Source: an uncultured Desulfovibrionaceae bacterium
GTDB lineage: Bacteria; Desulfobacterota; Desulfovibrionia; Desulfovibrionales; Desulfovibrionaceae
Length of the DNA: 59,121 nt
Direction of reading: 5' to 3'
Assembly: GCA_944324045.1 (NCBI GenBank)
Contig: CALUUT010000068.1
Span: forward strand, 97,285-156,405
The notes below the pieces were generated by a model. The model ran no database searches. It saw only the letters and a program-made list of their open reading frames with translations, and was not told the origin of the DNA. Position 1 is the first letter of the stretch, and every line of letters begins with the position of its first letter. Both the position numbers and the translations under genes were made by a program. Shown in pieces: positions 61 to 49,283 of this stretch.

Positions 61-543
61 TTATGCGACGCCGCTATTTTGTGCAGACTGATCCGAAGCG
101 ACAGCAAGTCGACTCTTACGCTCCTCCAGTCGGGCAATTTTTTCTCGCAACACGCCATTTTCCCGCAAAATTTCTTCCTTCTCGCGATGAAGTTGGCGGT
201 TTTCGGCAATCACCTCGCGAAAATCCTTATCCAGAGATTCCAGTTTTGTTTCCAGTCTGGCGCAGCGGGGGCACATGTCCTGCATGCGCGGTATGGCCGC
301 AGGCATTTCCGGCTGAAACGCCTGTTCCCGAACGTCGCTTTCACGTACAGGGCCCGCCCCCAGGAGTAGCCAATTCGGGGAAACACCAAAAATAGAACAT
401 ATATTCACACAAACACTAAAATCGGGTTCAGATTCTCCTCTTTCATATCGCCCAAGCGTATTTTTATGGATTCCGAGTTTTGCGGCGAATTCGGCCTGCG
501 TCAGGTCTCCCCGAATAATTTTAAGGCGTTCAGAGGCGTTCAA
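61..543 (-). CDS. Xre-family transcriptional regulator with Cys motif and coiled coil
   Basis: A 160-residue cytoplasmic regulator. Residues 1-65 form a phage-repressor-type helix-turn-helix (the recognition part, about residues 14-37, reads LTQAEFAAKLGIHKNTL followed by GRYERGE), which binds operator DNA as a dimer in known family members. A CPRC motif lies at 91-94, and residues 95-145 are charged heptad-like sequence that should form a coiled coil, so oligomerisation through the C-terminal half is likely. There is no LexA/CI-type protease domain, so the inducing signal is not evident. The gene is divergent from the Stealth gene at 747, and the AT-rich 200-bp gap between them holds small palindromes that may be its operators. 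The target genes are unknown. Confidence 0.85.
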   Translation of the reverse strand: MNASERLKIIRGDLTQAEFAAKLGIHKNTLGRYERGESEPDFSVCVNICSIFGVSPNWLLLGAGPVRESDVREQAFQPEMPAAIPRMQDMCPRCARLETKLESLDKDFREVIAENRQLHREKEEILRENGVLREKIARLEERKSRLAVASDQSAQNSGVA

Positions 544-746: not shown

Positions 747-1817
747 ATGAAATCAACCGTAACCAGCCGTCCTGAAACAGGTATGAGACAGTTTTACGAT
801 TCCGATGCGCGAACGTCGAAGTTTCCTTTCCCCATTGACGCCGTATTCACTTGGGTTGATGGTTCTGAGCCCGCATGGCTTGCTGCCAGGCGCCGCTGTT
901 GGGAGAGCGTGGCGCAAAGGAGCGGTCAGAATGGCGCGTTTGGCGAAGACGCTCTTGCTCCTGCGCGTTTTCGGGACAATGGGGAGCTTCGTTTCGCGCT
1001 TCGCTCTTTGGAACTGTACGCCCCATGGATACGGACCGTGCATATTGTCACGGCCGGGCAGTGTCCGGACTGGCTGGACAGGGAACAGGCCAACCTGGTG
1101 GAGCACAGGCGCATTTTTCCGGACGAACGGCTGCTTCCTGTCTTCAGTACCCGGCCCATAGAATTGTGCGTGCACCGTATTCCGGGACTGGCGGAGCATT
1201 TTCTCTACTTTAACGATGATTTCATGCTTGGACGTCCTGTGCGGCAGGAAGATTTCTTTCTGCCCACAGGGACGCCTGTCGTATGGGCTGTCCGGCACAG
1301 CCGCCGTGAACTGGAAAAACGCGGTCGGGAAAAGAGCGCCACGCATACTGTGGCCGTCAACAAGTCCTGTGCGCTGATCCGGGAGCGTTTCAACCGGGAT
1401 TTTCCGTATCGGATGCGCCATTTTCCCAAAGCCATGACCGTGACGACCGCGCGGCAGGTATGGGACGTTTTTCCGGACGCCGTCCGCCGCACTTTGGCTT
1501 CGCCGTTTCGGTCATTAAACGATATCTCCATGACCATGCTGTATCCTTTGTATCTTTTGGCCACGGAACAGGGGCTGTTGCGCAGAATTAACGGCATCTG
1601 GCAGTTGCGGGATATGTTTAGCGGCGGAGTGTGTCATATGGGCACGTCGCTTGGCGATCACAACTGGAAAAGAAAACTTGCCGCCATTGCCCGTATGCGG
1701 CCGAAGACCTTCTGCCTGAACGACAGCACCTATGCCTCTGATGCGGACCGGGCGGTGTTGCGTACCTGGTTGGCCGCCCGTTTTCCGGCGCCATGCCGGT
1801 TCGAACATGATGAATAA
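747..1817 (+). CDS. Stealth-family glycan (hexose-1-)phosphotransferase
   Basis: A 356-residue protein with the four Stealth conserved blocks. CR1 is at about 29-41 (PIDAVFTWVDGSEP). CR2 at about 74-171 contains DNGELRFALRSLELYAPWI, VTAGQCPDWLD and HFLYFNDDFMLGRPV. CR3 is at about 220-275 (HFPKAMT then SLNDISMTMLYPLYLL), and a CR4 remnant lies near the C-terminus (FCLND). Characterised Stealth proteins transfer sugar-1-phosphate from a nucleotide sugar to build phosphodiester-linked capsule or exopolysaccharide. The next gene is a polysaccharide ligase/polymerase-like membrane protein and overlaps by 11 bases, so a surface-glycan role is likely. No clear ribosome binding site precedes the ATG; an in-frame ATG at 783 is an alternative start, which would still keep CR1 intact. 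Confidence 0.88.
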   Translation: MKSTVTSRPETGMRQFYDSDARTSKFPFPIDAVFTWVDGSEPAWLAARRRCWESVAQRSGQNGAFGEDALAPARFRDNGELRFALRSLELYAPWIRTVHIVTAGQCPDWLDREQANLVEHRRIFPDERLLPVFSTRPIELCVHRIPGLAEHFLYFNDDFMLGRPVRQEDFFLPTGTPVVWAVRHSRRELEKRGREKSATHTVAVNKSCALIRERFNRDFPYRMRHFPKAMTVTTARQVWDVFPDAVRRTLASPFRSLNDISMTMLYPLYLLATEQGLLRRINGIWQLRDMFSGGVCHMGTSLGDHNWKRKLAAIARMRPKTFCLNDSTYASDADRAVLRTWLAARFPAPCRFEHDE

Positions 1818-3087
1818 TGTCCGTATATTGCGATGCTTCAGGATGTTTTTTCCAGAAGGGGTTCCCTTGAAAGCGGCGTGGTTGGCGACGCTTCCGCGGA
1901 TTCTCTGGCTGGCTGCGCTTGCGCTGCACGGCAGCCTTCCGTTGCATTCCGATCTGACGACGTTTGTCCTGATCTGTGCGTTTCCGGCTCTGCTTCTGGC
2001 CCAAAGGCAGCCGCCGCGCATTCCGACCGGATATGCCGCGTTCGCTCTGGCGGGCGCGGCGCTCATGTTTGCCGCGACAGTGGTCGCAACGGCGTTGCAT
2101 CCGGAAACAATTGCCGCCGCATCCAGGATTGTTTTATGGGCGGCCTGTCTTTTCAGCGGCATGATTCTGGGGCGGGAATTGCCCGGGCATCGGTATGTTT
2201 TTTTGGGGGCGCTTGCGGCGTCGCTTCTTATTTCAGGGATAGCAGGCTTTGCCGCAGAACGGCTGTGGCCGGAAAGCGTTGATTTATGGCAGGGAGACAG
2301 GCTGAAGCTGTTCGCTATACACCCGTCCCGGCTGGCTCAATACTGCGCTGTGGCCATATTCTGGAGTCTGCAGGGATGCGTTGGGGCGAAAAGCGCGTTG
2401 CACAGGGTTGCATACGGCGTTTGCTTGGTTGCCCTTTCCAGCATGTTTTTTTTGACCAATACCAGAGCCATGCTGTTCGCCCTAGCAGTAGCCTTGCTTT
2501 GCCTGTTGCCTGCGGTTGCTCGCTGTTTCAGGAAACGGCTGCTCTTTATTTTGGCTTGTCTCATCGCCGCCGGCGGCGCCAGCCTTGTTCTGTTTCCGGA
2601 TGCTGAAGCCAGCCGCAGGCTTTATTCCGTGCTCAGCAATCCTCTGTATGACCCCACATACCGTTCCCGGCTTCCCATATGGGAGGCCGGATGGACCGCG
2701 TTTACTGAGGCGCCCCTGTTTGGACACGGGATTAAAAGTTTCCGGGAACGGTATGAGGCGTGCCGGAGCACGCGCGAAAGCGAATGGCGTGTGCGTTTTC
2801 CAGGGTATGAGCCGTCGGTCAAACATGCGCATAATATTTTTCTGGGCCGCCTTGTGGAAACTGGTCTGGCAGGATGCCTAGGCTTTATGGCGTTTTTCTG
2901 CGGAGTCATGGCCTGCGCGTTGTGCGGGCCGCAAGCGGAACGATGGATTGCGGGATGGTTTCTTTTTTTTCTATTGGCTGGTCTGATGGATGATCCGCTT
3001 TTTCGGGTGAACGACAGTTTTGTGTTTTTTGCGGCCGGCTCCGTTCTTGGCGGCGCTATCCGCCGGAAAGACGAAACGCCGGAATAG
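1807..3087 (+). CDS. O-antigen ligase / Wzy-C-like polysaccharide membrane protein
   Basis: About 426 residues, highly hydrophobic, with some ten or more predicted membrane segments. The Wzy_C/O-antigen-ligase signature is visible in the second half: LFGHGIKSFRERYE, then a periplasmic stretch ending HAHNIFLGRLVETG, then a membrane helix. A TNTRAMLFALAVALL segment precedes it. Such proteins join or polymerise undecaprenyl-linked glycans on the periplasmic face. The ATG chosen overlaps the end of the Stealth gene, implying translational coupling. The open frame continues upstream to 1732, but that part runs through the Stealth gene; an ATG at 1843 is another possible start. Which glycan is the substrate cannot be read from sequence. 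Confidence 0.82.
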   Translation: MMNNVRILRCFRMFFPEGVPLKAAWLATLPRILWLAALALHGSLPLHSDLTTFVLICAFPALLLAQRQPPRIPTGYAAFALAGAALMFAATVVATALHPETIAAASRIVLWAACLFSGMILGRELPGHRYVFLGALAASLLISGIAGFAAERLWPESVDLWQGDRLKLFAIHPSRLAQYCAVAIFWSLQGCVGAKSALHRVAYGVCLVALSSMFFLTNTRAMLFALAVALLCLLPAVARCFRKRLLFILACLIAAGGASLVLFPDAEASRRLYSVLSNPLYDPTYRSRLPIWEAGWTAFTEAPLFGHGIKSFRERYEACRSTRESEWRVRFPGYEPSVKHAHNIFLGRLVETGLAGCLGFMAFFCGVMACALCGPQAERWIAGWFLFFLLAGLMDDPLFRVNDSFVFFAAGSVLGGAIRRKDETPE

Positions 3088-3334
3088 AGCGGATGCGGCA
3101 GAAAAAACGGCCGGCCTGGGTCTTATTTCAAAAGCGTCCTGTGTCGGGCATGCGGCAAAACCCGGCGTATCCATTTTTCGGATGCGCCGGCGTATCGCCT
3201 TTTGAGATATGAATCCTTCCTGTTCCCTGTGTTCTGGCGCGTTCCGTCATTGTTGCTCGCTCTTTCGACTATCCGGATGACCGCTATTGTCGTCTTTTAT
3301 TTTTAATGAGTCTTAGTCCTAAATAAAATACCTC

Positions 3335-3340
3335 TATAAT
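3335..3340 (+). promoter_or_regulatory. Candidate -10 box inside the inverted-repeat cassette
   Basis: A perfect TATAAT lies 24 bases before the start codon of the small ORF at 3365. No good -35 hexamer is found at 16-18 bases upstream, so this rests on the -10 alone and its position. Confidence 0.35.
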
Positions 3341-3364
3341 GTATATAAAATAAAGGAGTCCAGA

Positions 3365-3541
3365 ATGAGCAGATATCGTGTAAAATGTGAACGCAGAAAA
3401 GATACTGCAAGCTCTAAATCCGTTTGGTATGAGTATGTTGAAGCCAGTTCTGAATCCGTTGCGCGTTCGATAGCCAGCGAAAAAGCAAAAATTAGACTCC
3501 CAAACGAAATTATTGCCATTTTAGAAGCAAAAAAACTTTAA
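3365..3541 (+). CDS. Small hypothetical protein in inverted-repeat cassette
   Basis: A 58-residue ORF starting MSRYRVKCERRKDTAS and ending IIAILEAKKL. An AAAGGAG Shine-Dalgarno sits six to seven bases before the ATG, much better than most gaps here offer, so translation is credible. The protein is basic, has one Cys, no membrane segment and no signal peptide. The pattern YEYVEASSESVARSIA followed by a short helix resembles small accessory proteins of unknown function often found in mobile regions, but I recognise no family with certainty. Codon use is more AT-rich than the neighbours, consistent with transfer along with the flanking repeats. Confidence 0.55.
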   Translation: MSRYRVKCERRKDTASSKSVWYEYVEASSESVARSIASEKAKIRLPNEIIAILEAKKL

Positions 3542-3646
3542 TTTATATGTAAAGTGGTTGGACAGGACTCATTAAAAATAAAATTTGTCAATAGCAGTTA
3601 TCACGGTAGAGCAATAAGGCGGCAAAGATTTTCAGGGTTTTCCGTC

Positions 3647-4543
3647 TTATTGCTTTTGTCTGCGGTTGACCAGAGCCGCATGGACCTGTTCCGCATTGTA
3701 GCTGCTGCGGACGAGCGGAGCGGAAAAGACAAAGGGTATCCCCAGTTCGCGACCTCTTTTTTCATACAGTTTGAATACGTCAGGATGAACGTAGCGTTCC
3801 ACGTGCGGGTGGCGTTGCGACGGGCGCATGTACTGCCCGATGGTCACGATATCGCATCCTATTGCGGCGAGGTCCGCCAGCGTCTCATATACTTCCTCAT
3901 CCGTTTCGCCCAGACCGACCATCAGGCCGCTTTTGCTGATGCGTCCGGCTTCTTTCACCCGGCGCAGCAGTTCGAGACTTTGCCTGTAATCAGCCTGAGG
4001 CCGGATGCGCGCATAGTGCGCAAAAGGCGTTTCCACATTATGGTTGATGATGTGCGGGGCAGCGTTTATGACTGTTTGCAGGGCTGTTTTGTCGCCCTGA
4101 AAATCCGGAATGAGAACTTCAATGGTCGGGCAGACGGCGTTGCTGCCCTGAATCGCCCTGATGGTGGAAGCGAAATGAGCGGACCCCCCGTCCGGCAGGT
4201 CGTCGCGGGTTACGGAGGTGACGACCGCATGGCGCAAACCAAGGAGCGCCGTCGCCTTGCCCACGCGGATGGGCTCTTCCGGGTTGGGCGCGCGGGTTGC
4301 ACCTTTGCCGATGTTGCAAAAGGCGCAGTTTCGGGTGCAGGTGTCGCCAAGGATGAGAAATGTGGCTGTTTTTCGGGAGAAGCATTCGAATTTGTTCGGG
4401 CACCGGGCGCTGTGGCAGACCGTATGCAGATGAAGGTGGTCCGCAAGGGCGCGCGTGTCGGAAAACGCAGGGCCGCAGGGCAGCTTAACGCGCAGCCATG
4501 GGGGGATTCTCAAAGAGGGTCTGGAATTCTCTGGAGCAGACAC
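3647..4543 (-). CDS. lipA: Lipoyl synthase
   Basis: Radical SAM enzyme that inserts two sulfurs into protein-bound octanoyl groups to make lipoyl cofactor. The auxiliary cluster motif [12 protein letters not shown] gives Cys43, 48 and 54; the radical SAM motif CTRNCAFC gives Cys69, 73 and 76; the conserved C-terminal RSSY motif is present (SSYNAEQ). I chose GTG at 4543 because a perfect AGGAGG lies six bases upstream, giving 298 residues, the normal LipA length; longer versions add a spurious N-terminus. This places the start 59 bases inside lipB, whose coding sequence therefore contains the lipA ribosome binding site, implying coupled translation. With LipB it completes endogenous lipoylation (for example glycine cleavage H protein or oxoacid dehydrogenases). 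Confidence 0.96.
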
Positions 4544-5129
4544 GTTTGACCTCCTGCATGGAAATGGAGTCGTCGCCGCGTTCACGGCATAAGGAAGTGG
4601 CCTCGGCATCGGGAAGACCGCACAGGGTAATAGCGTTGAAAAGAGAAAGGTCGCGCCCGACGTTAAGCGCAAACCCGTGGAAAGAAATCCAACGGCGCAC
4701 GCCTATGCCAAGAGAGCACAGTTTGCGCCTGCCTATCCACACGCCGGGCCGCCCTTCCCATCGCGCGGCCCGCACCTGAAAAAACGCCGCGGTGCGGATG
4801 ACGGTTTCCTCAAGGAGCGCGACGAAGTCGCGCAGGCCGTGCGGGCGTTTGTCGATGCGGACAATAGGGTAGGCCACAAGTTGCCCCGGAAAGTGACAGG
4901 TGATATTGCCGCCGCGTTCTGTGCGGACCACATCGATGCCTGATTTTTCAAGTTCCGCCGGATTGCGGCGCAGGTTTTCCGCGCCGCCATGCCGTCCAAA
5001 CGTGACGACAGGGGGATGCTCCACAAGAAAGAGCGTGTCTTCCGCGCCTTGCAGAACCTCTTCATGCCGGGTCAGTTGCGCGGTCAGAGCGTCATTATAG
5101 CGCATCATGCCAAGATCAATGATTTTCAT
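4485..5129 (-). CDS. lipB: Octanoyltransferase LipB
   Basis: A 214-residue cytosolic enzyme moving octanoyl from acyl carrier protein to lipoyl domains, the first step of lipoate synthesis. The family motif appears as [18 protein letters not shown] at about 72-89, where many homologues have TYHGPGQ. The catalytic Lys is Lys136 (RRKLCSLGI) and the catalytic Cys is Cys170 (TLCGLPDAE), with the SFHGFALNV block between them. It is the first gene of a two-gene unit with lipA and overlaps it by 59 bases. No strong Shine-Dalgarno is seen before the ATG. Complete and of normal length. Confidence 0.95.
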
Positions 5130-40122: not shown

Positions 40123-40168
40123 AATACGAGCCCTCCCGGCCAAGCGCCGGGAGGGCTCGTATTTTTTG
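40123..40168 (+). terminator. Strong rho-independent terminator after the M23 gene
   Basis: Arms of 18 perfect base pairs (AATACGAGCCCTCCCGGC at 40123-40140 and complement at 40146-40163), five-base loop, followed by six T. Twenty-two bases after the M23 stop. Confidence 0.95.
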
Positions 40169-48871: not shown

Positions 48872-48965
48872 ACAGGAAAAAACGAATAAGCGCTATGCAG
48901 GGGATGAATTGCTCCAGGCCTTGTTTTGATTGACAATATCGCGGCGGATTCGCATAATTATCATC

Positions 48966-49111
48966 ATTCTCAGGGCGGGGTGAAAGTCCCCACCGGCGGT
49001 GTCCCCGGGCGCATCTGCCCGGCAAGCCCGCGAGCGCGTCCCATGGGGGACGGCAGCAGATCCGGTGAGAATCCGGAGCCGACGGTGACAGTCCGGACGA
49101 AAGAGAATAGG
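48966..49111 (+). ncRNA. FMN (RFN) riboswitch
   Basis: The aptamer is recognisable: TCTCAGGGCGGGGTGAAAGT at the start, CCCACCGGCGGT, GCGAGCG, the GGCAGCAGATCCGGTGAGAA block and ending GACGGTGACAGTCCGGACGAAAGAGAA. A six-way junction with P1 formed by TTCTC (about 48967) and GAGAA (about 49104). It binds flavin mononucleotide and would lower ribB expression when FMN is plentiful. Two downstream stems (49122-49140 and 49175-49199, then a T-run at about 49210) are the probable expression platform. Confidence 0.95.
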
Positions 49112-49283
49112 CCGTTTTTTCTCCGCGTCTCATGCGCGGATATCTCCTTGAAAAGATTGAGGAGTCCTGCCTGCCGCCCTGATGCTGCATCAGGAGGCGT
49201 CTTTACAATGCTTTTTTCAGGTTTCCGTTTTTTGGGGAAACAGGTATTGTAAGCCGCCCCCTTTTAGGATGAAAGGAGCAGTT

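Follow-up and report, generated by a model that had tools for sequence, protein, structure and literature searches.

A 58-codon orphan ORF between exact 18-bp inverted repeats in the gap separating lipA from an O-antigen ligase gene in an uncultured Desulfovibrionaceae bacterium

Inverted arms in an AT-rich intergenic stretch

The window, which here means the whole 59,121-nucleotide stretch of DNA that was analysed, contains a short AT-rich unit at 3295-3583. The unit sits between the 3' ends of two convergent genes, one for an O-antigen ligase and the other lipA, which lipB adjoins. The features of the locus are as follows.

1732-3087, + strand: left neighbour, O-antigen ligase (Wzy_C, by Pfam)
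3269-3319, + strand: left long imperfect arm, identical to the right long arm in 40 of 51 columns, with one gap
3287-3291, + strand: TTGTC, left copy of the sole 5-bp direct repeat near the ends, a possible but weak target duplication
3295-3312, + strand: left exact 18-bp arm, TTTTATTTTTAATGAGTC, from the inverted-repeat search
3335-3340, + strand: TATAAT, a -10-like hexamer
3352-3358, + strand: AAAGGAG, Shine-Dalgarno-like, 6 nt ahead of the ATG
3365-3541, + strand: orphan ORF of 58 codons (58 aa), single-sequence model beta-beta-alpha-beta
3560-3609, - strand: right long imperfect arm
3566-3583, - strand: right exact 18-bp arm, perfect reverse complement of TTTTATTTTTAATGAGTC
3585-3589, + strand: TTGTC, right copy, a possible but weak target duplication
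3610-3654, no strand assigned: hairpin directly after the right long arm, its + strand side bearing a T-run
3647-4672, - strand: right neighbour lipA, lipoyl synthase (radical SAM, LIAS_N, by Pfam)

The two exact arms are spaced by 253 bp, and their pairing is beyond chance. First-order Markov simulations of the whole window (n=50) never gave an exact inverted pair of at least 18 at a spacing of 50-700 bp (the largest was 16, once), and none of 1000 first-order simulations of the local 500 bp reached an exact pair of 18 (the largest was 14). Consistently, the 18-bp pair is the longest spaced inverted pair of the 156,405-bp contig (gap 60-1500), the next one being 15. The first-pass annotation of this DNA had proposed perfect 18-bp inverted repeats at 3295-3583, and its coordinates were exact.

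A longer, imperfect inverted repeat, 3269-3319/3560-3609, has the exact arms as its core. Immediately outside the exact arms, 17 of 26 columns still match (P about 1e-5), and the first 44 columns of the long arms were also recovered by the inverted-repeat search. Two points of the first-pass annotation are corrected by this: the arms extend imperfectly beyond 18 bp on either side, and the AT-rich block runs over 3285-3657. Folding of the + strand RNA of the whole stretch gave a z of -5.43, and none of 100 shuffles was equally stable.

No clear target duplication was found at the exact arms when 3270-3299 was compared with 3580-3605. The same comparison listed no direct repeat of at least 4 flanking 3269/3609, and none was seen by eye beyond it. 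The TTGTC copies lie 3 and 1 bp outside the left and right exact arms, and the bases that separate them from the arms show no mirror match between the two sides. Their number is not beyond chance: by our own estimate, about 0.8 five-base direct repeats are expected in the two compared stretches of 26-30 bases, so TTGTC proves little as a target duplication. When one TTGTC copy was removed and the flanks were joined, an imperfect palindrome without interruption was obtained, which means either that a palindrome received the unit or that the whole is one long stem. This palindrome of joined flanks was not found elsewhere in the genome.

At 32.5%, the GC content of 3295-3583 is well below the 54.8% of the window, which bears out the earlier description of the stretch as AT-rich. 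A likelihood fit placed the AT-rich block at 3285-3657 (start 3261-3298 and end 3593-3672 within 2 lnL), so that the block also takes in the hairpin to the right of the unit. Its left compositional edge coincides with the left arm. AT-rich islands are not rare here, and 15 runs of 250-bp windows below 38% GC were counted in the 156-kb contig.

The 58-codon ORF and its product

The ORF, the TATAAT and the Shine-Dalgarno sequence had all been pointed out by the first-pass annotation, and each was recovered at the position listed above. A scan with the two-hexamer promoter consensus gave no -35 partner for TATAAT. When the inner 253 bp were shuffled (n=5000), an ORF of at least 58 codons arose in 6.6% of the shuffles, and such an ORF preceded by AAGGAG or AGGAGG, a motif picked after inspecting the sequence, in 0.08%. 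Because the combination of ORF and motif was this rare, the 58-codon ORF is probably a real gene. The hairpin at 3610-3654 may be a terminator for + strand transcripts. A probable terminator, an exact 18-bp hairpin with a 5-base loop, was observed at 40123-40163 of the window.

A database match for the small protein had been suggested as a check, and none emerged. The 58-aa protein fell into no family of Pfam, NCBIfam or PADLOC, its only match in PHROGs had an E of 0.097 over 20 residues, and no match was obtained in phage and plasmid records. Among stretches picked up by pattern, none of 31 in viral_contigs and none of 320 in genome_contigs (where records of the own genome may be omitted) was confirmed. 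Whole-genome searches returned the own genome and one weak match (E 0.076) among 149 relatives including the own genome, the own genome and nine weak matches (E 0.03-0.09) among 395 genomes of the phylum including the own, and nothing in a further set of 4 genomes. The ten weak matches were rejected, as their frames are short, broken or within longer frames of other proteins. One of 398 genomes of another phylum also matched (E 0.007); this match has two internal stops and was rejected on its row. PDB sequences gave a single match with an E of 1.7. As far as sequence comparison reaches, the 58-aa protein is an orphan in all searches of this analysis.

AlphaFold2 with the single sequence predicted a strand-strand-helix-strand layout. 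The best of five models had a mean pLDDT of 83.5, and the other four 59.6-73.5; an antisense 61-aa ORF, modelled as a comparison, gave predicted helices with a pLDDT of 74.5. Foldseek against PDB found nothing at E ≤0.001. Against the viral models of BFVD, 1521 matches were returned at E up to 10, none of them at or below 0.001; the top match had an E of 3.4e-3, a TM of 0.69 and 30% identity, and the best 50 of the 1521 were mostly small uncharacterised phage proteins. Since the layout is simple, the likeness of the predicted fold to small phage proteins is a hint, not homology.

Search for further copies and related ends

A second copy of the unit was not found in its own genome, where two weak rows were the arms matching each other; collapsed repeats could escape in this 117-contig assembly. 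At up to 2 mismatches the arm occurs in the genome solely at its two known places, so the further arm copies that the first-pass annotation had proposed to look for did not appear. That annotation had itself named the lack of a second copy as one half of what would count against its reading, and this half is what we observed.

At the same time, one exact arm was found at 69 loci of genome_contigs and 7 loci of viral_contigs. The best reverse-complement partner within 3 kb of these 76 loci had 2 mismatches at 1 locus, 3 at 1, 4 at 13 and 5-6 at 61, and the reversed control pattern at the same loci gave 2 mismatches at 1, 3 at 1, 4 at 7 and 5-7 at 67. As the arm partners do not exceed the control, these counts give no clear sign of an element family. 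A transposase with matching ends, also sought on the suggestion of the first-pass annotation, was not found, the 76 single-arm loci having no pair above control. Six Prochlorococcus loci (L055, L072, L092, L098, L102 and L104) have the exact 18-mer in common, along with upstream DNA that is almost the same; they represent a single conserved site where the arm fits by chance. In the genome, the outer arm GGATGACCGCTATTGTC recurs neither exactly nor with one mismatch; at 2-3 mismatches it has 7 other places, versus 1 for the control.

A distant-mode search with the unit DNA matched 2 records among plasmids and, among phages, 5 that are all Lactococcus SK1-like; no match covered more than 12% of the query. 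The Geobacillus plasmid match (E 7e-3, 41 nt around one arm) was set aside as chance, as this stretch has no arm partner; its second match was the query's other arm on the same spot. The Lactococcus phage SK1 match (E 8e-3, 38 nt of the AT-rich leader) was likewise set aside as chance. A Pseudoalteromonas record among the distant-mode matches had an E of 0.3.

The surrounding genes were scanned as 20 genes of the window (to about 26 kb) and 10 genes upstream, which is part of the contig. Pfam found no transposase, integrase or phage structural gene among them, and neither a recombinase nor a prophage context was seen. A small HTH_3 regulator with the look of a phage repressor lies at the left end of the window (64-543, - strand), and an FMN riboswitch (102 bits) lies at 48962-49112. 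Among 59 relative genomes including the own, 28 match 2600-4700 by DNA, setting aside one 28-base row in the lipA/lipB half. All 29 relative loci (L007-L035) have lipA and none has an O-antigen ligase within 1.5 kb flanks; the 58 other genomes all lie outside the source genus (g1).

The hairpin at 3610-3654 touches another element of this genome, an interspersed structured repeat of about 165 bp that starts with AAGCAATAAGGCGGCAAAGCC and is 75-92% alike to the query. The first 28 nt or so of the hairpin match the start of this repeat, and the other hairpin strand begins alike; the window holds only the repeat's start, at this place. The first 18 nt of the repeat occur at 45 places of the genome at up to 2 mismatches, versus 0 for the control pattern, and two of the 45 are both strands of the window hairpin. 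With a 178-base query, the own genome gave at least 42 matching rows spread over at least 40 places, one of which is that of the query itself (40 of 95 candidates were scored). Examples from the own genome (G000) are C8:16310-16487, C68:43931-44094 and C51:29994-30151. Among the relatives searched, the repeat is nearly confined to this genome, with weak matches in 2 of the 58 others. Rfam against 8 repeat loci gave no match except a nearby tRNA. An alignment of 14 loci, which are those of 30 fetched with a match at the expected place, folds into hairpins, with double changes at 3 of 33 pairs and a covariation term of 0.19 that is no help. Many copies end in GAGGAAGATAGATGA, which resembles a ribosome-binding site followed by a start codon.

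Possible origins of the unit

Taken together, the feature is real and is probably a true small gene in a unit-like frame, present as a single copy and with no relatives found, whose movement we only infer. The first-pass annotation had called it a MITE or a gene-carrying mini-cassette. The compact unit with inverted ends and one gene stands. The MITE reading is not supported: its genome has a single copy, matching ends were not found elsewhere and no target duplication is convincing. Like bacterial MITEs, the unit is small, AT-rich and intergenic and has inverted ends; unlike them, it has a passenger ORF (58 codons with a Shine-Dalgarno sequence) and a single copy in a 117-contig assembly. MITEs are normally repeated in a genome.

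Mobile insertion cassettes offer a closer comparison. As PMC3913671 describes them, they are bracketed by inverted repeats with no transposase gene nearby and usually with a target duplication, and PMC5444012 distinguishes them by their coding sequence from MITEs, which carry no gene. The inverted repeats are 24 bp and imperfect in mic-qnrD and 22 bp in MICE-qnrS2 (PMC3913671, PMC5444012). Like MIC231 of Bacillus cereus, mic-qnrD and MICE-qnrS2, our unit bears a gene, is bracketed by inverted repeats and has no internal transposase gene. Those cassettes differ in having recognisable genes and, for mic-qnrD, a clear 2-bp duplication, whereas here we found an orphan 58-aa gene, one copy and no clear duplication. 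Two features of mobile insertion cassettes are present, namely the two bracketing inverted repeats and a coding sequence without a transposase gene; ends that match an insertion sequence able to move the unit in trans were not found. Because no matching ends occur elsewhere, we do not count the unit as a proven mobile insertion cassette; it is cassette-like at best.

We tentatively favour, at a little short of even confidence, the view that the stretch is what remains of a single insertion, similar to a mobile insertion cassette, that carried an orphan gene. A transposase acting in trans would have placed a short AT-rich unit of foreign origin, flanked by inverted ends, where the O-antigen ligase gene and lipA face each other with their 3' ends, and a small gene would have come with it, complete with a ribosome-binding site. 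This supposes that the unit moved at all and that its ends would be the 18-bp arms, not the 51-column arms. The ORF would be expressed from TATAAT, with a transcript ending at the hairpin 3610-3654, and its product may be a small accessory protein, moron-like and derived from a phage or plasmid. Like morons and small phage proteins, this is a small AT-rich gene standing as its own unit, with a predicted layout resembling BFVD proteins; unlike morons, it has no prophage among the scanned genes and no sequence homologue in phage records.

The paired arms, the foreign-looking composition, the well-formed ORF and the intergenic place downstream of both neighbours point to a cassette-like insertion, as does the lack of an internal transposase, for which the unit is too short. 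So do the left edge of the AT-rich block, which fits the left arm, the pLDDT of the best model (83.5 versus 74.5 for the antisense ORF), the small phage proteins ranking first in Foldseek, the TTGTC copies, one of which when folded away restores the palindrome, and the absence of a transposase nearby, as for the cassettes described in PMC3913671. Against it, no further copy, matching transposase or matching ends were found; the arms continue past 3295/3583 (17/26), which does not suit ends there unless the target was palindromic; AT-rich islands are common (15 runs); and four of the five ORF models have a pLDDT of only 59.6-73.5. That the unit is a single-gene cassette of an undescribed family, trans-moved, with ends unlike any found and a phage-like accessory protein of 58 residues that has no homologues by sequence, seems very doubtful.

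The arms could also belong to a stem that never transposed, in which case an AT-rich orphan gene, arrived by ordinary recombination or born in place, would lie within that stem in the convergent gap. We regard this as the main rival, a substantial possibility if somewhat below an even chance. The arms would come from local inverted duplication or template switching and be kept, or be decaying, as RNA or DNA structure, and the stem with the hairpin 3610-3654 would separate the two converging transcripts. The symmetry is indeed one continuous imperfect 51-column stem and not clean 18-bp ends, the + strand RNA fold is far more stable than its shuffles (z -5.43, 0/100), and the single copy, the convergent 3' ends and the AT-rich block past the right arm to about 3657 fit as well. 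However, the exact 18-bp core and the left compositional edge at the left arm look unit-like, and we know of no insulating role for a stem with a 240-base coding loop, which counts against it. The 40 of 51 matching columns might alternatively be the imperfect ends of a larger transposable element (3269-3609, 341 bp) that has decayed after loss or replacement of its transposase; this is unlikely, as no direct repeat of at least 4 was listed flanking 3269/3609 and the outer arm GGATGACCGCTATTGTC does not recur in the genome at up to one mismatch.

In an invertible segment, site-specific recombination would flip what lies between the arms and with it the ORF and its promoter. In favour of this, the arms are inverted, suit such a role in length and enclose a -10-like hexamer, a likeness shared with invertons. 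Unlike in invertons, no gene points away from the segment and no recombinase was seen among the genes scanned (20 in the window and 10 upstream, part of the contig). Whichever way the segment lay, it would drive neither of the two neighbours, and since both converge on it, a live inverton is improbable. Chance pairing can be given hardly any weight: AT-rich sequence does yield more chance repeats, yet none of the 1000 local simulations of the same first-order composition reached 18.

Inverted ends and an ORF are thus insufficient to call a MITE. If the cassette-like insertion is the right reading, this would be a very small gene-bearing cassette, with an orphan gene parked by a mover that left no other trace, and the origin of some orphan small genes would become testable.
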